Positions 16,786 to 51,959 of a stretch of DNA of 64,000 nt are shown piece by piece. Location: positions 1,680,574-1,744,573 of the forward strand of contig OY811991.1 in the NCBI GenBank assembly GCA_963681505.1, in the 5' to 3' direction. Numbering within the stretch: the first letter of the stretch is position 1; each line of letters starts with the position of its first letter. The position numbers were made by a program, and so were the translations under genes. Below the pieces are notes generated by a model that searched no databases, was not told the origin of the DNA, and saw only the letters and a list, made by a program, of their open reading frames with translations. The DNA is from Eunapius fragilis (Eukaryota > Porifera > Demospongiae > Spongillida > Spongillidae).

Positions 16786-17721
16786 TCAAACTTGTGGGAT
16801 CACAGTATTTCGATTCTTGAAGTAGTTAATAACTTTGGAGAACACGGCCTTTCGAATCCCTCTGTGTGTCGTCATAAACAGAAGCAAGACGAAACAATAC
16901 TCCATGTCAGACATGCTTATCGAGAGATAGGTGATAGGGGCACTGTTCAACACAACAGATATGTAGTATACAATAGCCAAAGGTATTTTGATTGCGAATA
17001 TCAGGACCAGAGTAGCCATACTGACGAGGAGCACAGATCTAACTATTCTGTCCGCCTCTATCGTACTCTGTTTTACGATAAGGTAGGACCGTACAGAGAA
17101 GACCACAACCAACGTCATGGGACACATGACGACAATTGCAACCAAGGCTGCTGATTGATAAAGGTAGGTCCTTAACACAGCTTCGTTCTCTAAGCACCAG
17201 GTTCCCCTGATTTTAGGCACAGCCCCTCCGTACGCACCAGCACCTGAAGCAATAAGAAGAATAGACGCAATGGCAGTACTTACTGTTACGACGCCGAACG
17301 CAGCAAGGACGAGTCTGGTCGTGATTTTTTTTTTGCCGTACTTGACCACGCAAAATTGTGTGCACGTGATCAACACTATTTGGCAAGCAATGAACATTCG
17401 CAAAAAACACGTAGCTCCTGTTCGAATAGCCCGAAAGGGGGATGAACAACTTCCCAACAGAGGTAGATCTGTAATCATTGACATATCATGGAGTAGACCA
17501 AACACAAGTGACAGCATACTCGCCATGGTCACGGCACAGAACAAAGTTGTAACTGGATCTCTCATTTCTCTGTCGGCACGGATATGGTATAAGATAGTCG
17601 CTCCCAGCAATACAGTTGGCACAATGACAAACAACATATGGGCGACGGATATCGCTATGTATGGAATCGGCGATGGTACTTGGTAAGAGAGATTGCACAC
17701 ATTTGCGGAGCAGTTATCCAT
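16786..17721 (-). CDS. seven-transmembrane GPCR-like receptor, copy B (311 aa)
   Basis: Intact ORF very similar to copy A, with the same seven hydrophobic segments and the same MDNC start; four upstream in-frame codons are less likely to be used. It differs from copy A by substitutions spread through the protein (for example YHIRADREMRDPVTTL against YRVYSDRKMRDPITAL) and one extra lysine in the loop after helix 3. It is closest to copy C (50878-51813). The flanks, including the 3' end, are also shared, so the family expanded by DNA duplication rather than retroposition. Confidence 0.75.
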   Translation of the reverse strand: MDNCSANVCNLSYQVPSPIPYIAISVAHMLFVIVPTVLLGATILYHIRADREMRDPVTTLFCAVTMASMLSLVFGLLHDMSMITDLPLLGSCSSPFRAIRTGATCFLRMFIACQIVLITCTQFCVVKYGKKKITTRLVLAAFGVVTVSTAIASILLIASGAGAYGGAVPKIRGTWCLENEAVLRTYLYQSAALVAIVVMCPMTLVVVFSVRSYLIVKQSTIEADRIVRSVLLVSMATLVLIFAIKIPLAIVYYISVVLNSAPITYLSISMSDMEYCFVLLLFMTTHRGIRKAVFSKVINYFKNRNTVIPQV

Positions 17722-18069
17722 GGTTTGCATCATTACTATAATAATAATAATAATAATAATATATGCTGCGTTATATACGTCTGTGCAGGCATCAGTGACG
17801 CACGCATAGTCGATACTTGCGGTGAAGCCTTGTGTTAGGGTGTGCTATTTAGTTAGCACCATGCATGTCACGGAAACATTATTAGGTACATGCAGGCCTA
17901 GTATTTTTAGAATTCTATAACACAGCGATGTGTATTAATATGGATGTGTAGTCATATGGAGAATGAGCAGTCAACAAACCTCAGGAATTATTTCCGGTTG
18001 CGGGATCACCCGTCCCCAGCCATACATAGACAAGTACGTGGCTGCTCAATGCCATGCGAGTACACCAGA

Positions 18070-18368: not shown

Positions 18369-18377
18369 TTGAAATGT
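18369..18377. repeat. left 9-bp target site duplication (TTGAAATGT)
   Basis: TTGAAATGT directly precedes the left inverted repeat and recurs at 29500-29508 directly after the right one. A 9-bp duplication is typical of Mutator-like elements. Confidence 0.9.
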
Positions 18378-18422
18378 ACCGCTTGGAAGTTAGCACCACA
18401 TTCCTCAGCACCACATTCCAAT
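18378..18422 (+). repeat. left terminal inverted repeat, 45 bp
   Basis: Exact reverse complement of 29455-29499. It contains the direct word AGCACCACATTCC repeated in part (CACCACATTCC occurs twice, 13-15 bases apart), a possible transposase-binding pair. Confidence 0.95.
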
Positions 18423-18639
18423 TAATTTGTAATGTGATTAAGATGCGGCCTGACGATAATCATTAATGCGGCCAACATTAATCGCGGCCAGAACGTTCAG
18501 GTACATGTAGCTAGCTGCTTGCGCAGATCGAAAACAGCCTACTTACCAGTTCACGACACGGCCTGTAATATGAGCCGGGCTTCCACATATGGACTGGAAT
18601 CACGGTACTTTTTGTGTCCAAGGCGCCTGGCTAACCCTA

Positions 18640-20290
18640 CCAAGTTGCACAGAAATGAGACTTTTTATTGTACAGGTGAACCCGCAACCATGATGCACAC
18701 ATGTAGGGCGATGGAATGGTATGGCAGAGGCATAGGGACATCTCACTAGGTCTGTCTGACACTGCTATGCACTTTTTGTGTGCTATGTCCCTCCCCTTTG
18801 AGAACCGTAGCTATGTCAATCATTCCTTTTATAGTACAGGTGACCCGCAACCATGATGCACAAAGACAGGGCGATGGACTGGTGTGGCAGAGGCATAGGG
18901 ACATCTCACCAGGTCTGTCTGACACTGCCATGCACTTTTTGTGTGCTATCCCCCTCCCCGTTGAGAACCGTAGCTATGTCAATCATTCCTTTTATAGTAC
19001 AGGTGACCCGCAACCATGATGCACAAAGACAGGGCGATGGACTGGTATGACAGAGGCATAGGGACATCTCACTAGGTCTGTCTGACACTGCTATGCACTT
19101 TTTGTGTGCTATGCCTCTCCCCTTTGAGAACCGTAGCTATGTCAATCATTCCTTTTATAGTACAGGTGACCCGCAACCATGATGCACAAAGACAGGGCGA
19201 TGGACTGGTATGACAGAGGCATAGGGACATCTCACTAGGTCTGTCTGACACTGCTATGCACTTTTTGTGTGCTATGCCCCTCACCTTTGAGAACCGTAGC
19301 TATGTCAATCATTCCTTTTATAGTACAGGTGACCCGCAACCATGATGCACAAAAACAGGGCGATGGACTGGTATGACAGAGGCATAGGGACATCTCACTA
19401 GGTCTGTCTGACACTGCTATGCACTTTTTGTGTGCTATGCCCCTCCCCTTTGAGAACCGTGGCTATGTCAATCATTCCTTTTATAGTACAGGTGACCCGC
19501 AACCATGATGCACAAAAACAGGGCGATGGACTGGTGTGGCAGAGGCATAGGGACATCTCACTAGGTCTGTCTGACACTGCTATGCACTTTTTGTGTGCTA
19601 TGCCCCTCCCCTTTGAGAACCGTAGCTATGTCAATCATTCCTTTTATAGTACAGGTGACCCGCAACCATGATGCACAAAAACAGGGCGATGGACTGGTAT
19701 GACAGAGGCATCGGAACATCTCACTAGGTCTGTCTGACACTGCTATGCACTTTTTGTGTGCTATGCCCCTCCCCTTTGAGAACCGTGGCTATGTCAATCA
19801 TTCCTTTTATAGTACAGGTGACCCGCAACCATGATGCACAAAAACAGGGCGATGGACTGGTATGACAGAGGCATAGGGACATCTCACTAGGTCTGTCTGA
19901 CACTGCTATGCACTTTTTGTGTGCTATGCCCCTCCCCTTTGAGAACCGTAGCTATGTCAATCATTCCTTTTATAGTACAGGTGACCCGCAACCATGATGC
20001 ACAAAAACAGGGCGATGGACTGGTATGGCAGAGGCATAGGGACATCTCACTAGGTCTGTCTGACACTGCTATGCACTTTTTGTGTGCTATGCCCCTCCCC
20101 TTTGAGAACCATGGCTATGTCAATCATTCCTTTTATAGTACAGGTGACCCGCAACCATGATGCACAAAAACAGGGCGATGGACTGGTATGACAGAGGCAT
20201 AGGGACATCTCACTATGTCTGTCTGAAATTGTTATGCACTTTTTGTGTGTTATGCCCCTCCCCTTGAAGACCGTGGCTATGTCAATCATT
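18640..20290. repeat. 163-bp tandem satellite, about 10 units, inside the transposon
   Basis: Units with the landmark ccctcccctttgagaaccgt begin about every 163 bases (18780, 18943, 19106, 19269, 19432, 19595, 19758, 19921, 20084, 20247). Inner units are almost identical; the outer ones are more diverged. ORFs of about 79 residues repeated along the array result from periodicity, as 163 is not a multiple of 3 and frames rotate. Confidence 0.95.
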
Positions 20291-20667
20291 ACTTGAATTG
20301 TATTAGTACAATACATTACCTGGAGCCATTCAAAGGACAGTCTAGTTTGAGCATTGGTTATTTAGAGGGCAGACAGAGAGGCAGGCTTGACCTACTAACC
20401 TTTTTGCAGACGGAGAGGCAGGCTTGACCTACTAACCTTTGACAAAGCTCCCTTTTAACACACCATTCAAGTGGCGTTCAAAGCAATTGTTCTCTCGATC
20501 ACGGAAGCTGAAGTCATCGAACCATTAATAGATATATAGAATTGTTTGGGCTATATATATATATAAGTACCACCAGCATCAATGCAGTCTGTGAAAGATT
20601 TGTTTGCTATGGTATGTTGATTTCAATTCATATCTGCGCGGTGTGTATAACCAGATGAATCTGTCAG

Positions 20668-21116
20668 GGGAAGAAGAAATACAACATAGACTTTGCGAGA
20701 CTCATTGCTGTTATCAGAAAGAAAGGCCTCCCTCCTCTCAATTCCTCCCGATGTGGCCCGAATGGATACTGGTTCTTAGTTGCTGCAGCTTTATCTAACT
20801 GTATCAAACCATCAGATAATTATGTTCTTGCTGTGTATAAATGTTGGCAGTACAACAAAGGTGGTCTGCGCACATCTCTTGGTAAGGCATCAGTACATAA
20901 GTGTCTCACAAATTTGCTACTATAGTTTCTGTATTATTATTTACTGAAGGCGAGTTACAGCATCAGGACAAAGAAGTGATTGGAGGCACAGAAGAAGGTG
21001 TAGACGACGATGGTGACATGGATGATGTGAGTGGTGGTGATGTTGCTGAGGTGCAGGAGGAATTTGTCCCGTTAGATGAAAGCTTGGTCGAGCCAAGGTT
21101 TGCTGATAAATACTAA
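20668..21116 (+). CDS. accessory ORF of the transposon, two exons, acidic C-terminus
   Basis: Exon 20668-20881 (after ctgtcag, donor gtaagg) reads FARLIAVIRKKGLPPLNSSR, then PNGYWFLVAAALSNCIKPSD and a K/Y/W-rich end. It joins in frame to exon 20950-21116, which is strongly acidic (GGTEEGVDDDGDMDDVSGGD) and ends FADKY. No domain is recognised. A donor-like site (gtttgc) at 21098 would let the exon splice onward before the stop, so this may be the true N-terminal part of the large gene beginning at 22052, now separated from it by the nested cassette. Upstream start exons between 20290 and 20668 are not defined. Confidence 0.5.
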
Positions 21117-21194
21117 AAAAATAGCCATATAAATAATGCTCTATAGAGCTCTTTCATGGTCACATGACAAAAAGCAATTAATCACGTAAATGTA

Positions 21195-21536
21195 ATGACG
21201 TTATCGTGTCCGCCATATTGGTGCTCGGCTGAAATGGGAGTCTGCGTTGTCGACCAGTGTTTTACCAATTCTATGGTAGGCAAGGGCACAAGATTGTACA
21301 GGATACCTAAAGTAAGAGCCCAGTATGGTGAATATGAGCTAGAATTGTCACAGAGACGAAGGAACGGCTTCCTGGCTGCAATCGGTCGTAAAGACTCGGC
21401 GTCACTTTATAACGCTCGGATATGTTCCCTGCACTTCATCAAGGGCAAACCAGCGCAGTCACTGTGTAGTGAATTAGACCAAGATTGGCTGCCTTCACTG
21501 AATCTTCCGGGTATATGTAAGAAAAGCCCAAGTTAG
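21195..21536 (+). CDS. THAP-domain zinc finger protein (113 aa or N-terminal exon)
   Basis: The THAP (C2CH) DNA-binding domain is clear: C-x4-C in CVVDQC, then RLYRIPKV, the RRRNGFLAAIGR stretch, and ICSLHF supplying the second Cys and His, followed by DWLPSLNL (P-S/T-L end). The preferred start may be the ATG at 21234 (MGVCVVDQC), which matches the usual position of THAP domains at the extreme N-terminus. THAP domains serve in P-element-like transposases and host regulators. The ORF stops at 21536. In another frame a basic stretch (RYSKRRRAATKREQ) follows, so a short intron or frameshift may extend it to about 21710. It overlaps the 3' end of the minus-strand ORF by 42 bases. Confidence 0.75.
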   Translation: MTLSCPPYWCSAEMGVCVVDQCFTNSMVGKGTRLYRIPKVRAQYGEYELELSQRRRNGFLAAIGRKDSASLYNARICSLHFIKGKPAQSLCSELDQDWLPSLNLPGICKKSPS

Positions 21537-21977
21537 TAACAGCAACATTGAACGGCTCCTTAGGTACTCGAAAAGACGGCGCGCAGCTACTAAGAGAGAA
21601 CAAAATGCGAATAAACAGTGCAGTGTACCAGGAGTTGCGGCAAAGTCAAAGGCTGTGGATAGTGAGCTGCATGAAAGTAGCGGGGGTATGTCCACCGACA
21701 CTGCATGACGATGTATGTCTTTCACCCATCCACTAACAAACTGGTTATAAGCTTCCAGAGATTTATGGGCTTTGAACTGTTTGCTAGTTATAAAACTGGT
21801 CTGCGATACTAAATACGACACCAAATCGCATCCACTGACTGGTGGTACAACGTCCGATTTTTCTCCAACGAAGTCAGATGAGAACGGATCTAACCCACCA
21901 ATGCTTTCGATTTTATCCATATATCGAGTCTTTGCATCTGGAGGCAAGCTATCTGCATACAAAGACAGCTTTGACAT
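21495..21977 (-). CDS. N-terminal part of a SWIM/YqaJ-associated protein family, convergent to THAP gene
   Basis: The ORF begins MSKLSLYADSLPPDAKTRYM and contains RYMDKIESIGGLDPF, then LVSYLVSQTSFITSKQFKAH and KSLEAYNQFVSGWVKDI. This arrangement is the common N-terminus of cnidarian and sponge mobile-element-type proteins that continue into a SWIM zinc finger and YqaJ-like nuclease. Only this N-terminal part is present. After GWVKDI (about 21725) the reading looks non-coding, and no downstream exon is seen on this strand, so the gene is truncated or very short. The start was chosen as the first ATG after the inverted-repeat arm. Confidence 0.55.
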   Translation of the reverse strand: MSKLSLYADSLPPDAKTRYMDKIESIGGLDPFSSDFVGEKSDVVPPVSGCDLVSYLVSQTSFITSKQFKAHKSLEAYNQFVSGWVKDIHRHAVSVDIPPLLSCSSLSTAFDFAATPGTLHCLFAFCSLLVAARRLFEYLRSRSMLLLLTWAFLTYTRKIQ

Positions 21978-22051
21978 GCTTTACGTTTAAAAGAGCGGAA
22001 TGCCCGAGCACCAATATGGCGGATAATTGATTACGTCAACTAATATATCAC

Positions 22052-25000
22052 ATGATTGCTGCTACGGATCACGCGATGAAAGAGCTCTATACTACATGTT
22101 TATATAATTTTGAATGGAGTATTGGAATGCAAGTTGTTACGCCGATCGCGAATCATCAACAAGCAATAAACCTCGAAGCCTTGCTTCGTGAAGACGAGAA
22201 ATTATACTGCATCTGTCAGGAACCTTTCGATGAGTCAAGGTTAAACAGTACCTGGTCAATTACAAAAATTGATGTGTAATGTTCTTCATTTTAAAAGGTT
22301 CATGATAGCATGTGACTACTGTGGCAAATGGTATCATGGCGATTGTGTCGGGATATCTTTAGAAAAATCTCTATGTATCACTGCATACAAATGCTTTGCA
22401 TGTACCATGGAAGGCATACCCACTCCCTTCTATACAACTGAAGGTTCGTTTTCATTAATGTTGCTTTGAATATATGTTACTATAGTAAAAGCATTAATTT
22501 TTAATTACTAGCTGCACAGCAAAAGGAAGATACTCAAATTACATCAATTCATGAGGTATATGCTACATGTTGTGCATGTTGCTGTTATGCTGCAATTCCG
22601 TATGAGTACTGAACATGGTACAAAGAAATAGTTGCAATGTAATGAGTATTTTTAAAAATACTTTTTATTTTAAGAATATGTTATTTTAAGATTATCTTTT
22701 AATTCACCAGGTTATTAATCTGTATAATATTATTCAGTTAGGGCAATAATTACTAACACAAAGTCAAAGTGTTGAACGCATAAAATAAAGTTGTTAGTAT
22801 GATGCATGTAAATTCCATGCTGATATAGTCTGCTATCAGGCTAGAGCCCATAAGGCTCTAGAGCCTCACATCTATGATGCTGCACTTGGGACCCTCCGCC
22901 ACCTCGGTAGCTGTAGGCTGCTGTAGGTGCCTTGGGGCTTAGCCACGGCCTGCGGCGGCCACTGGCGGGGTTTGAGTTTATGGTGTGTAACTCTGGCGGT
23001 AGAGTGTATAACATTATTTGTATCTTTCATATCAGTCAGGCCTATCAAGGCAAACTGCTATATGTCTTGGTAAATCAATGGAAATTTATGAAGGCCACAA
23101 TGCTGTTATGAGGAAATCACTAGATCAGTCTGGAAAATTTGACATAAGCCAAGATGAATTCCTCTTACATTTTGGCAATGAGAAAGTTAATCCTTCATGG
23201 GTTCATTTATTTTCTAAAGGATTGGCTGAAATCAATACATACTGCAGTTTTGCGTTTTAACCATAAATGTCAAGTTTGAGGGGAGCATATGCCATATCGC
23301 CAGCGAACGACATGCTCGTAGATTGAGTCTAAGTGTCAGAAAAGATACACAGACATATTTCCAACAGACGCGTATACCTCCATCTAAAGAGTATATAGGA
23401 AGGCTTATGAAGCTCACACCTGGACAATTTGCAACAGGAAATCGCGACAATGTAGGCTGTAACCCTTCTGCATTACGAAAAATATCATCGGAAGCAAGGC
23501 TTGCATTACAAGAAGACGAAAACCTTGTATCATCTCTGCTAATACTTAAACAAATATTTGAATTAGATGAGGCAAAACTTGTCAAAGAAGAATTTAACCA
23601 AAAACCAGCTGTTTGTGGGTACATACAGTGTATTCAGGCCTCTCCATTTGCAGTTATATGCTTCAATGATGCAGCAGTGAGGTTGTATCACGAAGTAGCA
23701 AAGAGAAACCCTATATTTTGTGATGCTACTGGCACTATAGTGTCTGTTCGTAATGAGGCTGGAAATAAACTTGTAACGTACTACTACAGCCTAGTGATAA
23801 AACACCCCATCAGAGGCAAACCGCCAATTGCAGTGGCAGAATTAATATCAACGGATCACACTGTTTTAACTGTTTGCTACTTTATTAATTGCTTTCGACG
23901 AGCAGAGGGTTTAATATTTGGATTTAATAATCTCATTAGCCCCAAACACATAGTCATTGATCGCAGTATGGTTTTGTTGCTGAGCTTTTTGCAGGCATTT
24001 AATATGGAAACATTACACGAATACCTCCAAAGAACCTTCCGTGTATGTAGTGGAGCAGGAAGTGACAAGGATATTAAAAAGATATCTCCTCGTGCCTGTA
24101 CTAGTCACGTGATGAATTCTGCTAAAAAGGATTGCAAAAAGTGGTGAGTTTTATTAATTTAGATGTTTTCAATAGTAAAATGCAATATTTTTCTTCTACC
24201 GTAGGTTTCAGAAAAGGCTGTATTCTTTTTCTATGTACAGCTTTTCTAGCCTCGTAAACTGTACAACTTTAAATGAGTTGGTGAAGAGATTATGTCTCAA
24301 GTATTGTATTGCTCAGAAATGGAATCAGTAGATACCAGAAAAGCATACAATTGTATTGTCAGGATTATAAACTTACTTAATAAAGAAACATTAACCTTGC
24401 CACATGAAAACGATTACTGCAATACAGAGGAAATATTAAATGACTTATCAGATTATGATAATGACTCATTACATGTGCAACCTTTTGGGGCATATTTCCA
24501 ACTTAAAGTGGCAAAAGTGAGCCTAACATCACAGGAAAAGTGTAAAAATATGTATTACCAACCACATTTTTTCTTAACGATCATTGAGAAATGGATGCCA
24601 ATGGCACCATTTTGGACATGCCTGATGCTGGGTAAAATTTAACTTGTCGTATATAGTGTTCATAATTTCAATTTTTTTAATTTAACAGGCGATCTGGAAC
24701 GTCATAAAGCAGAAAAGGCTTTAGATGCAACATCTCTGGTAATATAATTATGGCTGTAAAGCCGTACACAATTTAGTTGATGGATATTATGGTACAACAG
24801 AATGAACTGACACGAACAGCTGGAACAATTGAAGCCTGGAATTATATTCTGAAAAAGGTCGATCATTCGCAAAAGCGATTGCGACCTGATGTATTCTTAA
24901 AAGAACACTACCCTTTGATAATTGCACGACAAAGGCAATTCTTTGACGACATGACACAGCCTATTAAAAAACGAGTAAAGGTGAGTTGTTCTGCTAGCTA

Positions 25001-28000
25001 CGTAATGTGCTATAATTATTTTCTAATTAGAAATCTCTTCTAAGAAAGCCATCTCAGCCACTTAAAGAGAAGTGGCAAAGACGAATTATCGACACAAAAA
25101 GATCCCATGGATTTTTCCAGCAGCCTCCTAAAGAATTAATACATTTGATTGATATTGATGAGTTTACTGGTATGACAATGCTGTATATCAGCATTGTAGT
25201 TTATGATTTTTTTTTGGTTGTTGTTGCCGTACTGGGATTGTTCCAGCCAAAGAAGTTGCCATGGTAAGCTTTCCAAAGCATGTTACTTTTACATCACCCT
25301 GTAACCTGGCTATGTTCTCCCCATACTACTCACATCAGCAACCAGACAATGACCCTCTCCCCACATCTTTTCCCGTTCAAAATTCTAGCAGCACATTGTT
25401 TCCAAACCCATCATCACCAGCACAACCATCTCCGAAGTCACCATCATTATTACCACGATCATACCAGTTACAAACGAAAGAGAAAACAGCATTGGGAGAT
25501 ATGATTGAAGTTAATAAGAAACTTAATTCAGGACTTAAAAGTAGTTCCAATCTTTGCTGGCTGAATTCGGTTTTGCAATCTCTTAGTTGCACTCCATTGC
25601 TGCTGATGCTGCAAGGTAAACTACCCATATCATTCAAGTTGGAACAGCTAGTAATTTTTATATACTATAGCACTGCCTTCAACCGGTTTGACTCCACTTC
25701 AAGCAAGCTTTGTGGACCTAATGCAAAACCTCAAGAACACTGAAAAACGTTATTGTATATCTACTGACTTTGCAGTAAGGGTTTTTCAGTATCTTTACAG
25801 CTACAGTTAATAATAGCTCTACTCCAATAGAAGTTGCTAACAAGGGAAGCTGTATTCCTTCAGTATGGAGCTCAAAATGATTGCTGTGAAGGAATTATGG
25901 CAATAATAGAAAAGTTACTTATGTCAACTAATGTAAATTTTAATTTGTTTTGAGCAGCACACATTGGTAACCACTTTTTTTTTACAGATGCCATACAAGT
26001 GTGAGGAGGTTTTTAGAACAAAGTTCAACAAGGTTGCACATTGCTGTTCATTGGTAATTGCTGTTCTTAAAAGTTTAGTATTGACTTCACACTTCTCATC
26101 TTAAATAGCCTGTGCATGAGGTTTCATCATGTACTGTAGTTTCATGTGGTGATTCATCAAAAAGAAATGTGTTTGAGTCAATGTTGGTCTATCTGGAAGC
26201 AACTGTATTATCACACATGGAAGTACAAACGTAAGTACCTTCCCATGGCACATCTGTAAGTGATTACTGTTTCTTTCAGGTGTTGTGAAAAGTGTAATAA
26301 TTCTTTAGACATTATAGAAAGTCACATGCTGCTTCCACCAGTATTAATTATTCACTGCAATCGGGTGTCAGATGAGAATACATCTGTCAAGCTTAAAAGC
26401 CAAGTAATTGTTCCAAGGTGATTTCTTTATGATTCAAAAAGAAACACTATTTTCATATCTAAGTACACAGATGGCAACAATTATCTTATCCAAGTATCGA
26501 TGGAAGCATATGTTACGAGCTGAGTTCAATAGTCGTGAGCAGATAAATCTTGATTATCAGTAGTACTAGTATTGATTTATTTATCTTCACATTAAAGATC
26601 CATCATGGAGAGAGTGCTACAAGTGGACATTGTAACTAAATCATTTGCTTAATTCATGGTATAAATTGTGGTTCTAATACAGATACGTGTGCAGTAAGAA
26701 ATCAGAACAAGTGGATATTGTATAATGAAGCTAAAGTTACTGAAATTCAAACTTCACACTACAACACAATGCCGGAAGTAGAGGTATGTAATATTTATTT
26801 TGAACAGCATTGATATCATTCTTTTGCAGGAAAACATTTGCCTTGCTATATATGCATCATGCATGAAAGATGCAAGTTACTATATTACGTGGTATTTTGT
26901 TACTCAAAACGCTTCTAATCCACTTAGACCTTTATTGATAAAATTAATTCCACTCAACCCATTTGTGTTGGCACCCAATTTGTAAGAACATATCTAGGCT
27001 TAATGCTCTGCTTAAAGGATATGCTTTCCCAACAGCCGTTTGTTGGCTTGCCAGACCACTTGGAAGCCAAGGTTTGCACGTGACCCTAAGTGCAATTATA
27101 TGCATGCAATGTTTTGTTTGATACATAAAGATACAAGGAAATACATTAAAGCCACATTCCAGATTTCAGCTTCTGGAAACAGATATATTGGCTCTGGTAT
27201 CAGGAGATTGGATTGATTCTCAAGTAAGTTCTCAAGATCTGGCAACGGTTAGCAAGGTTTCATTCTTGAATGTGCTCATTTAGGTAATTGTTGCATACAT
27301 GGAACTTCTGCAAACATCCTTGTCAAGTGTAATCTAATTATCCAAATTTCTTTGCTCTAGTTCTGAAGTAACTTTCATTGTGTTACAACCAGGTGGGGAG
27401 AACAGTGATGTGCTTTGATCCCTTACTGATTCCAATCTTAAGAGCAAATGGTTTTGAAGCAGTATCAACACTTTCGAAAGTATGTATGAAAAGCAATCAT
27501 TGTTACATGCATAAATTATACAATACTACAAGGGAGTAAACATATTGATGTATGATGTGCTACTCTTCCCTGTACACAAGACCAAACACTGGTGTTTGAT
27601 GGTTGGTTAAAATAGATTCAGATTTGTTGTCATGTATTTCATGAACCTGACAGGTGGTCCACCCTCACCAGAAAACTGTTGATTGCTTTGACCCATTGCA
27701 TGACTCAAATGATGATGCCTTCAATTGGATATGGTTAGATAATGTGATAATTTGTATAGTACATTGAAATATTTTTTCTAATTTAAGGCTGTACATTTGC
27801 ACTGAGGTTTACCATAACTTGAAGCAAAGGCTGTCAATCTCAGATTGGAAATACAATGACTCAAAAGTATGCACTTCTAGTGTTACCATCATGTGATGTA
27901 ATATATTTTTAGACCAATGGTTCACCAGCTCAAACAAATTCAGTAGATTGCGGTACTTTTTTATGTTTCGTAAGAAAAAATTATGTTTTATTATCCAGCA

Positions 28001-29200
28001 GTTTTCAGTGAATTGATTATATTATCAGGCTGCTCGATTACAGGCTGAAGGTTTGCCATGCCTGCATACACAGGTATGTTTAATAGTCCATGCCTTTAGT
28101 GGTTACTCTTATATCATTATGCTGCTGAAAGGAAATGATGAACACATTCAGACACCAGATGGCCTATGAGCTATCTGAAGGAATGCTATACCCATTGCAA
28201 GGCAGCTCTTCCTGTTCTGCATGGAATTATACAAAAGATACTCCAAAGGTGCACTTAGAGCCCCAGGATAACATTGGATCATAAAGTGTACATGCATCCT
28301 TAATTTTCTAACCATGCGTTTGCAGGCTGATGATGATGGTAGTGATAGCGTTGTCATGGATGAAGAAAGAGAGTTTCAAAGTGATGGTATGGGCCATTGT
28401 AGGGTAGTACTGTCATAGTGTATGAGAAAAAAAACGTGTAACTTCTCATTTCAGAACAAGATCATGATGTATCAGATTACTCTGATGGTGGCGGAATGCA
28501 CAAACGATTTTGCAGTAAATTTCTCATTCCTACCTATGTTAATACTCCTGATCCAGATGACATCACTGCTCTTAAATGGGGCAGAGATCATTACATCCGT
28601 TTTTATCCGACATTGAGCAGACTGCCATACACGTAAGATGAATAAGAGTGATTATCATATTATAATTGCCAACCCTTTGAAGGGAAAAATCATGTCCTTT
28701 CACACGGGAGTTCATAAGAAGTGTAGTAAAGGACATGGAAGTAAGATAGAAAATGTTACTACAAGAATATATCATGCTTTTATAATTATAGCCTACTATC
28801 AGAAAGCTTCAGAATGGACAGCTACTTAGTGAATATCATGGGAATATTCCTATTGTTAAAACGCTTGTGAAAAATGACTCATATTGGCCTTTGCAGCACT
28901 GTCAAGATATGGTAAGTTGCATGTGTCAACTTTAACCACAAGTCAATGGGATCATTTTAGGTTGATGAAATAATTCATTACCTTATGGAAGTGGAAAGTG
29001 ACTGCAAGAAAACTGCTTCAGTTTCCATGACACCCATGAACAAACTTATTGTATGGCCAGAAGTAAGGCACGTAGTGTATACATAATACGCAAATGACAT
29101 GACTCTTTCATAGATTGTTACATCACTTATCATGAAACACTATAATATCAGTCGCAAGGAAGCGATTGCGCACTACCTTGCACACACATTTCCAGAATGA
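22052..29200 (+). CDS. multi-domain transposon protein: PHD, candidate DDE transposase, USP, Ulp1
   Basis: About 25 short exons with GT-AG introns (50-100 bp, one of about 470 bp) on one strand. The start may be 22052 or the ATG at 22127. In order: PHD finger (22199-22430), linker exons, transposase-like block (23251-24980), USP domain (25500-26870), Ulp1 domain (27133-28200), an acidic exon near 28330 and a C-terminal tail ending FPE at 29200. Frames of adjacent exons join at most junctions I checked, for example Q-ALPSTG at 25615/25671 and GHY-TCAV at 26631/26683. One likely frame problem lies near 24300, and the 23034-23260 exon links uncertainly. It could be two genes, one ending between transposase and USP, but no stop-plus-promoter break is obvious. 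Confidence 0.7.
22199..22443 (+). other. PHD finger of the transposon protein (two exons)
   Basis: Exon ending 22239 reads KLYCICQEPFDESR and the next (22298-22443) FMIACDYCGKWYHGDC, then YKCFACT. The C-x-C, C-x2-C, H-x2-C, C-x2-C spacing with W two before YH is a canonical PHD. PHD fingers bind histone H3 tails, often H3K4me3; the aromatic at GKW and the acidic residues upstream fit that class. Binding here is inference. Confidence 0.85.
22840..22990. repeat. GC-rich insert in the 470-bp intron of the transposon gene
   Basis: A GC-rich block (ctgcggcggccactggcggg) stands out from the AT-rich introns around it and contains gctgtaggctgctgtaggtg repeats. It is probably a small later insertion that explains why this intron is much longer than the others. 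Confidence 0.45.
23251..24980 (+). other. candidate DDE (MULE-like) transposase block
   Basis: The main exon (23251-24144) contains NPIFCDATGTIVSV (first D), KHIVIDRSM (second D) and RACTSHVMNS, a C-x2-H motif that MULE transposases carry between the second D and the E. Later exons give EKCKNMYYQPHF and RTAGTIEAWNYILKK, whose E may be the third acidic residue. Between 24206 and 24640 the frame must change once near 24300, suggesting a small indel or undetected intron. The DATG and elements around it are shared with invertebrate proteins that also carry Ulp1 domains. Confidence 0.6.
25500..26870 (+). other. USP (peptidase C19) deubiquitinase-like domain, catalytic residues present
   Basis: Cys box: LKSSSNLCWLNSVLQSLSC (25530-25590). 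A QYGAQNDCCEGI stretch (exon 25831-25932) sits where USPs have QxDAxEF. Then CCEKC (exon 26280-26417) with LPPVLIIHCNR, YELSSIVV (26471-26534), His box HHGESATSGH joined across an intron to YTCAV, and KWILYNEAKV with the third catalytic position (N). The domain ends with ENICLAIYASC. All signature blocks occur in order across about 9 exons. Substrate (ubiquitin or ubiquitin-like) is not known. Confidence 0.8.
27133..28200 (+). other. Ulp1/SENP (peptidase C48) protease domain, catalytic residues present
   Basis: Exons give ETDILALVSGDWIDSQ, VIVAYMELLQ, KTKHWCLMV (catalytic His), VDCFDPLHDSN (catalytic Asp) and GSPAQTNSVDCGTFLCF (oxyanion Gln and catalytic Cys). This is the full H-D-Q-C set of Ulp1-type SUMO/NEDD8 proteases. 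Ulp1-like domains are common partners of plant and invertebrate MULE proteins (the Kaonashi-like group), where their role is unclear. Confidence 0.8.
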
Positions 29201-29284
29201 ATATGTTCGTATTTCGTAGTTCGTATTTCGTATTACTTTTTGTGTTCATGCTCACCTACTATCGTGCCATTGCAACGCAGGCAT

Positions 29285-29440
29285 TGAGGCACAAAAAGTC
29301 CCTAACGGTACGACGTGCGGCGCGCGCACAGGTTATAGCCCTCCCTCCGACAGGCACCTTGTTGCCGCACAGAAAGTCCCTAACGGTAAGATTAGAGTGC
29401 GGCGCGCGTCAGCAAGCGCACGCGCACCTTTTGATTATAG
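29285..29440. repeat. subterminal direct repeats near the right transposon end
   Basis: The word aaagtccctaacggta occurs twice (about 29297 and 29371), each followed by a GCGGCGCGCG block. GC-rich subterminal repeats of this sort often bind transposases. Confidence 0.6.
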
Positions 29441-29454
29441 AATAATCGAATTAC

Positions 29455-29499
29455 ATTGGAATGTGGTGCTGAGGAATGTGGTGCTAACTTCCAAGCGGT
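29455..29499 (-). repeat. right terminal inverted repeat, 45 bp
   Basis: Exact reverse complement of 18378-18422. It is followed directly by the second TTGAAATGT at 29500-29508. Confidence 0.95.
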
Positions 29500-29829
29500 T
29501 TGAAATGTACAAAGTTCGATCTTTCAGTACGAGTAAGTTATAAAACCATCTGCCTCGGGGATTTTGAGAAAAATCGGTTGCCACCTGGGCGCTTAATGAA
29601 ACCTATAAAAGGCTTGCCTGAAGTGGTCACATGCGCGGCATTATTAGGCCAAATGGGAACATACTTCGCGTATTATTCTTTTTTTTTTAAGTACCAAATT
29701 ATAATGGTTTCTGAAAAATAGCGCCTTTGAACGTTAACAACAATATAGTGAGCTCCTCGAGCACAATAAAATACCGTAATATCAAAATGTGTGACTTAAT
29801 TGGAAAGTGAATTATGTCTCAAGTTAAAT

Positions 29830-30480
29830 ACAATTAATATAGCGCGGCGAGTACAATTCAAGCTTGTCCGTATTTCGATTCTCGAAGTAGTTAATAACTT
29901 TGGAGAACAAGGCCTTTCGAATCCGTCTATTCGTCGTCATAAACAGAAGCAAGACGAAACAATACTCATGCATATGGTTGTCGAGAGACAGGCGATAGGA
30001 ACACGTAGTATACAAGCTTTGGAGATATTTTGATTGCGAATTTCAGGACCAGAGTTGCCACTCTGACAATGAGCACAGATCTAACTATTCTGTCAGCGTA
30101 CCCAGAGGGGGTTCGTAACCAAAGAAACCCGTAAATTGCTAGTAAAATCTGATTTTACAATTTTACGGGTTTCCTTAGTTACGAACCCCCTCTGGGTACG
30201 TCCCGGCGCCGGGCGGGTGGCGGCGGGCAGGCGGGCGGCCCGACCAGTCTAAGACTATCGTAATTTGCTTCACGATAAGGTAGGACCGTACAGAGAAGAC
30301 GACGACCAACGTAACGGGACATATGATGATAATTACCGCCAAGGCTGCTGATTGATAAAGGTAGTTCCTTAGCACAGCTTTGTTCTCTTCGCACCATGAT
30401 CCCCTGATTTTAGGCACACCCCCTCCGTACGCACCAGCACCTGAAGCAATAAGAAGAATAGATGTACTTAACAATGCAAT
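29830..30480 (-). pseudogene. broken receptor copy (MDNC family fragment)
   Basis: The C-terminal and middle parts of the receptor are recognisable on the minus strand (helix 7, helix 6 start, helix 5, second extracellular loop). They are interrupted by an insertion at about 30098-30261 and cut at about 30470, where the sequence switches to an unrelated run containing aaaaacaggggcgcc. A short further receptor piece reappears at about 30747-30780. Deletions near 29960-30010 also remove the start of helix 7. It is not translatable. Confidence 0.75.
30098..30199. repeat. palindromic insertion in receptor pseudogene
   Basis: gtacccagagggggttcgta on the left is matched by its exact complement on the right around a short AT-rich centre. 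A GC-rich tail (to about 30261) belongs to the same insertion. Confidence 0.8.
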
Positions 30481-30683
30481 GCCGACAGTGGTGGTGTGGG
30501 CTGTGGCCAGGGGAGCCAGCCCTAAAAACAGGGGCGCCAAAATGCAGTGAAAGCGCCAAAATAACTTAGCGATGTAATAGAGAGCTATTAATTTTGTTAT
30601 TGATTATGAAATAAGGAGATACATGTATTCAGTTTTTTTTATTTTGTTATTTCTAGAGATATTTTTAAGCACGAGGCACCTTT

Positions 30684-39745: not shown

Positions 39746-42700
39746 ACTCATCACCCTCCCCACACCAACACTTCCATCACCCTTCCCACACCAACACTTC
39801 CATCTCCCTCACCACGCCAACACTTCCACCACCCTCACCTATACCAACACTTCCATCACCCTCACCACACCAACACTTCCATCACCCTCCCTTACACTAA
39901 CACTCCCATCACCCTCCCACCTTCCCTTTCTCCCCCTCTCTAGGCATCGGCCACACAGGACCTTGTTCAGAAGAAGCTAGTGTACCTGTACCTTACCACC
40001 TACGCCAAATCCAACCCTGAGGTAGCCATCCTTACTGTTAACACCCTTCAGAAGGATTGTAGGGACAGGAACCCTGTAGTGAGGGGACTGGCCCTTAGGA
40101 GCATGTGTTCCCTCAGGTAAGTCCTAGGAGGTGTGGTCTTACATTAGGAGTGGTCTAGGAGAGGAGTGGTCGTATGTTATTACGGGAAATAGGAGAGGTG
40201 TGGTCTTATGTAGCTATGGGAAATAGGAGAGGTGTGGTCTTATGTAGCTATGGGAGATTGGGAGGAGTGATTTTATGTTGCTAAGGGAGATTGGGAGGAA
40301 GGAGTGGTCTTATGTTGCTATGGGAGATTGGGAGGAGTGGTATTATATTGCTATGGGAGATTGGGGGAGTGGTTTTACGTTGCTAAGGGAGATTGGGAGG
40401 AGTCTTGTATTTAATGGAATTGAGGGGTTTCATGGTTTCTGTGCTTTCCAGGATCCCAAACATCGTGGAGTACCTTAGAGATCCCTTGCAGGCAGGATTG
40501 GTAGACCGCAGTGCCTATGTACGGAAGACTGCAGTACTGGGTGTGGTCAAAGTGTTCTATGTGGCCCCCCAGCTGATCACAGGTATGTCTGCATCTGAAT
40601 GTGTTATCTTTTAAGTTACACCTCTTCCTTCCTCTCACCATCAACCTGCCCTCCTCCCCCTCCCCTCTCTCCTCTCCCTTCCTCCCGCTCTCTTACTTTC
40701 TCTTCCTCTCTCTGTCTCCCCCTCTCTCCTCCCTTCCCCTTCCCCTATCTTCTCCTCCCCCTCTCTCCTCCCCTTCCCTCCCCTCTCTCCTCCCTTTGCC
40801 TCCCCCTCTCTCCTCCCCTTCCCTCCCCTCTCTCCTCCCTTTGCCTCCCCCTCTCTCCTCCCCTTCCCCTCCCCCTCTCTCCTCCCCTTCCCCTTCCCCT
40901 CTCTCCTCCCCTTCCCCTCCCTCTCTCTCCTCCCCTTCCCCTCCCCCTCTCTCCTCCCCTTCCCCTCCCCCTCTCTCCTCCCCTTCCCCTCCCCTCTCTC
41001 CTCCCCTTCCCCTCCCCCTCTCTCCTCCCCTTCCCCTCCCCCTCTCTCCTCCCCTGCCGTTGCAGATCTGAACTTGGTAGACATACTCTACCAGATGCTG
41101 AGGGACAAAGATGTCCAAGTGGTCACCAACTGCATAGCGGCCTTGAATGAGATCCTTGCAGCAGAAGGTGGTATGGTCATGAACGCCAAGATAGCTCATT
41201 ACCTCCTCAACAGGTGACCCCTCCACCTCCACACACACACACACACACACACCCAGTTTGATGCAATTATTTTAATTGGGTCATGCATGTATATTCTGTC
41301 ACTGTCACTCAACAATGCCTGAGCAACATTGTATGAGCACTCACTCACTTTAATAATTTCCCTTTAATGAGCTAAGCATTTGTGGCAAGGGCAGCATGTT
41401 ACTACATGCTGCCCTTGTAATACATGATGCAGGAGCGGACGTACGAAGGGGGCGTGGCAGTTAAAGAGGGGGGAGTTAAATGATTATTCACAACTATCAA
41501 TGCAGAGTGCCTAATTTCCTGCTATGAATATTATTATCGAAGGGGGGGGTTAAACCCCCAACCCCCCCTAGATCCACTACTGACATGCACCATATGTACA
41601 TGTATGCACTATATGTACATGTATGCACCATATGTACATGTATGCACCATATGTACATGTATGCACTGTATGTACATGTATGCACCATATGTACATGTAT
41701 GCACCATATGTACATGTATGCACCATATGTACATGTATGCATCATATGTACATGTATGCACCATATGTACATGTATGCACTATATGTACATGTATGCACC
41801 ATATGTACATGTATGCACCATATGTACATGTATGCACCATATGTACATGTATGCACCATATGTACATGTATGCACCATATGTACATGTATGCACTGTATG
41901 TACATGTATGCACTGTATGTACATGTATGCACCATATGTACATGTATGCACTGTATGTACATGTATGCACTGTATGTACATGTATGCACTGTATGTACAT
42001 GTATGCACCATATGTACATGTATGCACCATATGTGCATGTATGCACTGTATGTACATGTATGCACCATATGTACATGTATGCACCATATGTACATGTATG
42101 CACCATATGTACATGTATGCACTATATGTACATGTATGCACCATATGTACATGTATGCACCATATGTACATGTATGCACCATATGTACATGTATGCACCA
42201 TATGTACATGTATGCACTGTATGTACATGTATGCACCATATGTACATGTATGCACTGTATGTACATGTATGCACCATATGTACATGTATGCACCATATGT
42301 ACATGTATGCACCATATGTACATGTATGCACCATATGTACATGTATGCACCATATGTACATGTATGCACCATATGTACATGTATGCACCATATGTACATG
42401 TATGCACCATATGTACATGTATGCACCATATGTACATGTATGCACTATATGTACATGTATGCACCATATGTACATGTATGCACCATATGTACATGTATGC
42501 ACCATATGTACATGTATGCACCATATGTACATGTATGCACTGTATGTACATGTATGCTGGCTGACATTTGTAGGATCCATGAGTTCACGGAGTGGGGGCA
42601 GGGTCAGGTGATGGAGCAGGTGTTGAGATACCAGCCCTCCAGTGACGAGGAAGTGATTGATATCCTGGTCAGTCATCTCTCTTGGGAAAGGGGAGGGATC

Positions 42701-43044
42701 ATGTACATTATAACTCCTCCCTCCCTCCCTCCCTGTCTGTCTCCCTTCTTCCTTGTCTCCCACTCTTTCTGTCATTAGAATATTCTTGATGATCGCCTGA
42801 AGCATGCAAATTTTGGTGTTGTCATGGCAACTGTTCGCGTTTTCCTGCATGTCACCTCCAACATGTTGGACATGCAGGCAGATATCTTGGAGAGGATAAG
42901 AGGTATGTTTGTCTGTGTGTGGGGGGGGGGCATGTGGTATCATTGATCATCAGTACCTCTTACCTGTGTTCTTCGTTTTGTTCACATGTGCACACACACG
43001 CATACATACACGCACACGCACACGCACACGCACACGCACACACG

Positions 43045-50877: not shown

Positions 50878-51813
50878 TCAAGCTTGAGGGATCACCGTAT
50901 TTCGATTCTTGAAGTAGTTAATAACTTTGGAGAACACGGCCTTTCGAATCCCTCTGTGTGTCGTCATAAATAGAAGCAAGACGAAACAATACTCCATGTC
51001 AGACATGCTTATCGAGAGATAGGTGATAGGGGCACTGTTCAACACAACAGATATGTAGTACACAATAGCCAAAGGTATTTTGAATGCGAATATCAGGACC
51101 AGAGTAGCCATACTGACGAGGAGCACAGATCTAACTATTCTGTCAGCCTCTATCGTACTCTGTTTTACGATAAGGTAGGACCGTACAGAGAAGACCAAAA
51201 CCAACGTCATGGGACACATGACGATAATTGCAATCAAGGCTGCTGATTGATAAAGGTAGTTCCTTAACACAACTTCGTTCTCTTCGCACCAGGTTCCCCT
51301 GATTTTAGGCACAGCCCCTCCGTACGCACCAGCACCTGAAGCAATAATAAGAATAGACGCAATGGCAGTACTTACTGTTACGACGCCGAACGCAGCAAGG
51401 ACGAGTCTGGTCGTGATTTTTTTTTTGCCGTACTTGACCACGCAAAATTGTGTGCACGTGATCAACACTATTTGGCAAGCAATGAACATTCGCAAAAAAC
51501 ACGCAGCTCCTGTTCGAATAGCCCGAAAGGGGGATGAACAAGTTCCCAACAGAGGTAGATCTGTAATCATTGACATATCATGGAGTAGACCAAACACAAG
51601 TGACAGCATACTCGCCATGGTCACGGCACAGAACAAAGTTGTAACTGGATCTCTCATTTCTTTGTCGGCACGGATATGGTACAAGATAGTCGCTCCCAGC
51701 AATACAGTTGGCACAATGACAAACAACATATGGGCGACGGATATCGCTATGTAGGGAATCGGCGATGGTACTTGGTAAGAGAGATTGCACACATTTGCGG
51801 AGCAGTTATCCAT
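50878..51813 (-). CDS. seven-transmembrane GPCR-like receptor, copy C (311 aa)
   Basis: Intact ORF with the MDNC start at 51813; an in-frame extension to 51885 adds 24 residues not conserved in the other copies. It is closest to copy B (same KKK after helix 3, same RADKEMRDPVTTLF stretch). Shared flanks run from about 50700 to 51960. A run of eight or nine T/A at 51418-51426 encodes the lysines and is a likely hot spot for frameshift. Confidence 0.75.
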   Translation of the reverse strand: MDNCSANVCNLSYQVPSPIPYIAISVAHMLFVIVPTVLLGATILYHIRADKEMRDPVTTLFCAVTMASMLSLVFGLLHDMSMITDLPLLGTCSSPFRAIRTGAACFLRMFIACQIVLITCTQFCVVKYGKKKITTRLVLAAFGVVTVSTAIASILIIASGAGAYGGAVPKIRGTWCEENEVVLRNYLYQSAALIAIIVMCPMTLVLVFSVRSYLIVKQSTIEADRIVRSVLLVSMATLVLIFAFKIPLAIVYYISVVLNSAPITYLSISMSDMEYCFVLLLFMTTHRGIRKAVFSKVINYFKNRNTVIPQA

Positions 51814-51959
51814 GGTCTGTATGGAATATAATATCGTACTACTTATTTTAAAAAACATCTGTGCAGGCATCAGTGACACATGCATAGTCGATACTTGCGG
51901 TGAAGCTTTGTGTTATGGTGTGATATTTATTAGCACTATGCATATCGCGGAAGCATTTT

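Follow-up and report, generated by a model that had tools for sequence, protein, structure and literature searches.

Rehavkus is a transposon superfamily that serves as the outgroup to Mutator-like elements (MULEs) in published trees. In the passages that describe it, it is characterized by a PHD finger, a minisatellite before the 3′ terminal inverted repeat (TIR), a 9-bp target site duplication (TSD), TIRs of 26-400 bp and one open reading frame (PMC6446971). According to one review, in its section on the group, very few elements are known, from Repbase only, in insects and annelids (PMC6446971). A Tribolium example, Rehavkus-1_TC, is given in the passage concerned as 9.5 kb long, and its inverted termini contain a satellite of 164 bp (PMC10218199). 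MULEs have TSDs of 8-11 bp by the same account of the superfamilies (PMC6446971), and the reported maximum length among 322 complete arthropod MULEs is 10.0 kb. Here we compare with these systems a very large transposon from the sponge Eunapius fragilis. It lies in a stretch of 64,000 nucleotides (contig OY811991.1, positions 1,680,574 to 1,744,573; C21:1680574-1744573), which we call the window.

Our reading, to which we give a probability of about 0.9, is that the window element belongs, as a defective copy, to lineage A, a young cut-and-paste DNA transposon family whose elements are very large. The family would be Rehavkus-like in build, with a PHD-transposase-USP machinery and a SENP partner; its copies with a broken gene 1 would be mobilized in trans, and its elements would exchange ends with other lineages.

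Ends, copies and recent movement

The boundaries and terminal features of the window copy are as follows.

18378-29499, whole element, framed by inverted ends and a 9-bp duplication
18369..18377, no strand, target duplication, left copy, 9 bp, TTGAAATGT
29500..29508, no strand, target duplication, right copy, TTGAAATGT
18378..18422, + strand, left TIR, perfect over 45 bp, about 51 bp if one indel is allowed, contains the tandem motif AGCACCACATTCC
29455..29499, - strand, right TIR, 45 bp perfect
18378..18691, + strand, left-end module, terminal 314 bp, 98.7% identical on a lineage B element
18680..20283, + strand, subterminal satellite array, 163-bp unit, 9-10 units
29284..29391, + strand, two subterminal direct repeats of 30 bp at the right end

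An earlier sequence-only reading of the window had proposed inverted ends identical over 45 bp and a 9-bp duplication without mismatches, and both hold. The two arms are complementary at 45 of 45 positions, with inverted similarity extending to about 51 bp at 98% if one indel is allowed, and TTGAAATGT is present on either flank. The genome searched is one haploid assembly of 219 Mb in 24 contigs. The 45-mer end occurs in it 41 times at up to three mismatches (33 exact) and a reversed control pattern not at all, so the further copies that the earlier reading called for exist. Eleven regions besides the window, picked from the search tables, were read, and a copy was taken to have both ends when each showed no more than six mismatches in 45. 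By this rule 11 of the 12 copies, window included, have both ends, and in nine of these 11 the 9-bp duplication is exact and different each time. The 41 ends against none for the control, together with the exact and differing duplications, confirm that the structure seen in the window is real and not due to chance.

The 11 both-ended copies range from 7.4 to 13.9 kb, the window copy and six of the other ten exceeding 10.0 kb, and the unusual size claimed for the element is upheld. Two copies, C15a (C15:718273-725673) and C4a (C4:9450205-9458108), carry internal deletions between perfect ends and have exact target duplications; the C15 derivative includes about 1.2 kb with no counterpart in the window copy.

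Recent activity had also been proposed, and the copies bear this out. Seven gene-bearing copies, compared pairwise from gene 1 through the right end, differ by 0.12 to 4.1 mismatches per kb. The closest pair, C3a and C5c, shows one mismatch in 8132 aligned bases. These two copies have two frame-breaking gene 1 insertions in common and yet lie on different contigs, each with its own TSD; the simplest reading is therefore that a broken copy moved in trans. The same pair is informative on the satellite array. The number of 163-bp units varies from 7 to 31 across 11 copies counted, and C3a has 17 units whereas C5c has 31, although their gene regions are a single base apart, so array size changes far faster than sequence. 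All the matches to the 163-bp unit that were listed, part of 328, lie within or beside elements of the family.

Empty sites complete the picture of precise insertion. When the window flanks are joined, matches at 75-83% identity run across the junction in 35 of 40 rows. Three such loci aligned to the flanks are gap-free near the junction and have a single, diverged target copy, with about 76% identity over 210 columns. Judged from these alignments the sites are paralogous and lie in a diverged repeat; an empty site had been sought by the earlier reading and is found in this form, an empty allele of the same locus being beyond the view of one haploid assembly. The joined flanks of another copy, C7a, give 38 of 40 rows spanning the junction, 17 loci at 97-100% identity, and two of these sites read directly have one target copy each. 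The C7a flank resembles a retroelement integrase by eye. Precise target duplications together with empty sites are what is expected of a cut-and-paste DDE transposon.

Gene content

Two genes are predicted, in the same orientation, between the satellite array and the right end.

20582..26985, + strand, gene 1, predicted, 21 exons, 1337 residues in the intact copy C5a: N-terminal region, PHD finger, transposase, USP
22121..22443, + strand, PHD finger in two exons, Pfam PHD 5.4e-8 on one window reading frame
23036..24143, + strand, main exon of the transposase, candidate acidic residues in FCDATG and IDRS, CxxH-like motif ACTSH, roles putative
about 24800-24980, + strand, exon with the candidate E (GTIEAW), role putative
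25247..26985, + strand, linker and USP (peptidase C19) exons with both the Cys and the GHY box, Pfam UCH on the C5a model
27003..29200, + strand, gene 2, predicted, 16 exons, 448 residues: SENP/Ulp1 protease and conserved C-terminal tail, frame unbroken in the window copy

The gene 1 model in C5a has 20 of 20 introns with GT-AG boundaries and is stop-free across 1337 residues; a stop codon separates it from gene 2. On this model the PHD finger occupies residues 164-209 (E 1.1e-7), and Pfam matches assign UCH (E 1.2e-26) and C48 (E 4.4e-21). Amongst PDB entries the USP region matches USP21 (1e-9) and gene 2 matches SENP1 (5.3e-24). Three of the 11 both-ended copies (C5a, C5b and C3b) have both genes open. 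In the window copy two deletions, one of 139 bp at 23257/23258 and one of 4 bp near 24300, break the frame of gene 1, and a further 9 bp are missing in frame. The earlier description as a complete transposon is supported, but perfect ends do not render this copy autonomous.

The transposase carries candidate acidic residues and a CxxH-like motif at positions that are our own alignment reading, and we presume that they have their usual catalytic meaning. Because these motifs are conserved and the duplication is 9 bp, we infer that the protein is a DDE/RNase H enzyme.

The earlier list of cargo (PHD finger, transposase, two proteases, a THAP cassette and a satellite) stands except for the THAP cassette, which sits in an intron of gene 1.

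21146..22087, no strand, THAP-encoding element, about 0.94 kb, TIR GAGCTCTTTCAT, TATA repeated at both sides

Its ends occur in the window only among 11 copies. Eight of the other ten show the uninterrupted site, and the remaining two, which likewise have no THAP element, are the deleted derivatives C15a and C4a. Elsewhere in the genome there are many copies, full-length rows being 93-97% identical. The idea that it is cargo of the large transposon was rejected on these grounds, and the nested THAP element is an independent mobile element. An 8-bp target duplication, GCTCTATA, as looked for in the P superfamily, was also tried and discarded; it fits the window copy, but a second copy, L064, shares just the TATA.

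Lineages and conservation of the unit

The main transposase exon used as a query gives 82 genomic matches. A tree of 32 copies, in which many forks are weak, contains six lineages (A with 13 rows, B with 8, C with 6, the others with 2, 2 and 1), and transposase identity between lineages is 52-65% for the pairs computed. Gene order, read directly in B and C, is collinear with A. Downstream of the transposase, among the first 42 of the 82 matches, USP follows in at least 37, the gene 2 tail in at least 35 and both in at least 32; both of the two-row lineages are among the matches with USP and tail. Lineages B to F encode the whole unit or parts of it. Viral contigs, scanned twice, and contigs of prokaryote genomes, scanned once, yielded no relatives.

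Comparison of A with B and of A with C reveals that second codon positions differ at 0.22-0.35 and third positions at 0.55-0.63, in every module including the proteases. Since second positions are conserved and third positions far more variable in all modules, the proteases are, by this measure, old working parts and not fresh captures. The alignments support the PHD finger, transposase and two proteases as a conserved unit.

This pattern bears on whether the element might be an ordinary Mutator-like element of the PF10551 type that has captured host gene fragments (a Pack-MULE), with the proteases as passengers. The 9-bp TSD falls inside the MULE range, MULEs capture genes, and Ulp1-bearing Mutator elements are known in plants, hydra and lancelet. 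Against this, the element is not among the 45 PF10551 matches of the genome, and its proteases are collinear across lineages whose transposases are 52-65% identical and show the transposase's own codon-position pattern, which argues for old parts. We consider the passenger explanation very improbable.

Several observations tell against our own reading of the element as a young, Rehavkus-like family with a conserved machinery. The twelfth copy read, C1a, has a diverged left end (10 mismatches), and two both-ended copies depart from an exact TSD, C5b matching at 8 of 9 positions and C20a at none. The splice models depend on open frames, GT-AG boundaries and homology, with manual fitting of the exon list for C5a. 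The transposase has no substantial Pfam match, either on the C5a model (none) or in eight related exons (best match unrelated, E 0.034), a profile search of the PDB with the transposase matched no chain, and the first candidate D is missing in one of the eight aligned exons (L047). The USP match is missing in up to five and the tail in up to seven of the 42 transposase rows, and the codon counts cover the parts alignable by tblastn, which favours conserved stretches. A TSD was looked for in the lineage C copy that was read and none was found. Finally, the evidence base consists of DNA sequence.

Comparison with known systems

Is the element a MULE, as the earlier reading had it? Taken strictly this label is not supported. 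There is no PF10551 match in the element, and hmmscan finds no MULE domain in eight related transposase exons. The duplication, 9 bp and exact in nine of 11 copies, fits the 8-11 bp of MULEs and fits Rehavkus also. The element resembles MULEs of the PF10551 kind in its TSD, its TIRs and the Ulp1 protease that some of them carry, but differs in lacking the PF10551 domain, though true examples occur in this genome, and in that seven of the 11 both-ended copies exceed the arthropod maximum. The 45 genomic PF10551 matches appear to be true MULE transposases, some in open frames over 800 residues.

Other systems share single features. Plant non-TIR MULEs of the Vandal/KIU (Kaonashi) type have Ulp1 as a conserved extra domain, but their hosts are plants, they have no TIR, and the passages describing them mention neither USP nor PHD (PMC13317346). 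Ginger1, of Hydra and others, carries Ulp1 or OTU on the transposase, one family being listed with Ulp1 and PHD; however, the passages on it give a Gypsy-type integrase, YPYY, zinc finger and GPY/F motifs and a size of 2.6-7.1 kb, and list no USP (PMC2836005). The foldback-type elements Tetris and Galileo have repeats inside their ends, and a Tetris-derived satellite is described, but Galileo is assigned in the excerpts on it to the P-element superfamily and has a THAP domain.

Rehavkus is the closest described kind, by description, and we call the element Rehavkus-like. The PHD finger with the transposase (E 1.1e-7), the 9-bp TSD, TIRs within 26-400 bp, a 163-164-bp satellite near the ends and the large size all correspond. 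With respect to satellite position, the lineage A array is on the 5′ side only, and the lineage C copy that was read has diverged ends, one with a motif resembling AGCACCACATTCC, and 163-bp arrays inverted at both termini. An obvious question is whether the element is simply one more Rehavkus, within the superfamily as already described. The PHD finger, TSD and TIR length, the 164-bp satellite in the inverted termini of Rehavkus-1_TC and the inverted 163-bp arrays of lineage C all speak for this. On the other side, Rehavkus is listed with one open reading frame and a minisatellite before the 3′ TIR, whereas here there are two predicted genes, with a USP fusion and a SENP-like protease that the passages describing Rehavkus do not mention, a one-sided 5′ array in lineage A, and ends common to different lineages; the comparison is with published descriptions of Rehavkus. 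We put plain membership at slightly better than even.

The element had further been thought not to be described as one unit. In part this does not stand: PHD finger, minisatellite and 9-bp duplication are those of published Rehavkus, and Ulp1 and C19 proteases alongside transposases are already in print, as the sections on these domains indicate (PMC2836005). What does stand is that the PHD-transposase-USP fusion with a SENP gene was not found in literature searches, which is weak evidence as most papers beyond their titles, and Repbase, were outside their scope.

An end shared between lineages

The lineage B element at C17:4510320-4529519, 19.2 kb long, shares its first 314 bp with the left end of A at 98.7% identity, yet its transposase is 58% identical to that of A and its genes are reversed relative to the shared end. 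At its far terminus stands an inverted but diverged end, with 3 mismatches in 20, and the whole is framed by an exact duplication, GTATTATTT. When the flanks of this hybrid are joined, 19 of 29 rows match over the full 220 bases with 99-100% identity; 16 of these are exact, and two were verified letter by letter. Because the joined flanks match empty sites so closely, the 19.2-kb element with one foreign end is one that jumped recently into a young repeat. In this repeat (L031, from about 4565) an open frame encodes a CCHC knuckle and a VDTGSS protease motif; the repeat has many identical copies, is retrotransposon-like and looks young.

The A-type end is found on six of eight lineage B copies, 6.6-7.9 kb from the transposase exon and on the expected side. 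In the C9 copy of lineage B there is no end within the 2.3 kb examined. Where an A-type end sits on B, 4 to 11 positions separate it from A copies, and A copies differ among themselves at up to 10. Two B copies that were read, on C17 and C18, have an identical A/B junction. The switch point is where the A array and the B array start; the lineage B element at C17:4510320 has a 153-bp array partly similar to the A array and a 173-bp array with no match to it. The position of the switch suggests that recombination through related arrays made the shared end. A relative in lineage B (C17:4667375) with a 96% identical transposase has a different end, with about 30 bp in common with A, behind about 30 units of a 153-bp array. 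Since this relative has a different end, and A's two ends match each other, the end probably passed from A to B.

Could the shared end instead be the remnant of an A element that inserted beside B's old end and was then trimmed, or could the transfer have run from B to A? The junction lies at the array start, where sequence alone cannot separate recombination from a deletion joint, and the direction depends on a single B copy with a different end (C17:4667375), placed at an open fork of the tree. On either account there must have been a recent transfer, with an end 98.7% identical set against transposases 58% identical. The C17 and C18 copies have the same joint, the C17 hybrid, with its 9-bp TSD, transposed as one piece, and A's own ends match each other, while those of B do not. 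We regard both versions of this alternative, remnant or reverse transfer, as unlikely and favour passage from A to B by recombination.

Proposed mechanism

If expressed, the PHD finger-transposase-USP protein of intact copies would bind the terminal repeats, perhaps through the tandem AGCACCACATTCC motifs. The gene 1 product would likely excise the element and reinsert it with a 9-bp stagger. A role of the ubiquitin/SUMO pathway in transposition has been proposed for the Ulp1, OTU and C19 domains of other transposons, in the passages that treat them (PMC2836005). In the present family, the probable task of the USP domain and of the separate SENP-like protease is to remove ubiquitin or SUMO from proteins of the host or from the transposase, be it at the ends, the synapse or the break. 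Where gene 1 is broken, as in the window copy, movement likely occurs in trans by means of intact copies, and elements would exchange ends among lineages.

On a bolder extension, these transposons would form a modular system in which the satellite arrays, rebuilt with or close to each jump, act as joints for exchange. Whole ends could then be swapped, even reversed, between lineages with transposases about 58% identical, hybrids could use the machinery of the other lineage, and the transposase-USP and SENP proteins would be a matching, built-in ubiquitin/SUMO control at the break. This extension is tentative, and we hold it to be less probable than not.

Genomic neighbourhood

The window also contains four closely related open frames, one of them partial, that look by eye like seven-helix receptors.

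1537-2511, - strand, receptor-like open frame
16786-17844, - strand, receptor-like open frame
30175-30603, - strand, receptor-like open frame
50878-51912, - strand, receptor-like open frame

The transposon sits inside this array of paralogues, with copies on both sides. A long tandem repeat at 41484-42778 contains open frames of repeated 20-residue units in several frames.

Implications

The set described here is young and spans several lineages, and it offers intact copies as well as deleted derivatives, hybrids and exact empty sites, which makes the Rehavkus-like kind of transposon testable. The ends shared by distant lineages show how transposons can change their ends while retaining their genes. 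The conserved fusion of a transposase with a predicted deubiquitinase, beside a SUMO-protease-like gene, bears on the suggestion, made for other transposons in the passages on their protease domains (PMC2836005), that ubiquitin and SUMO may have a part in transposition.

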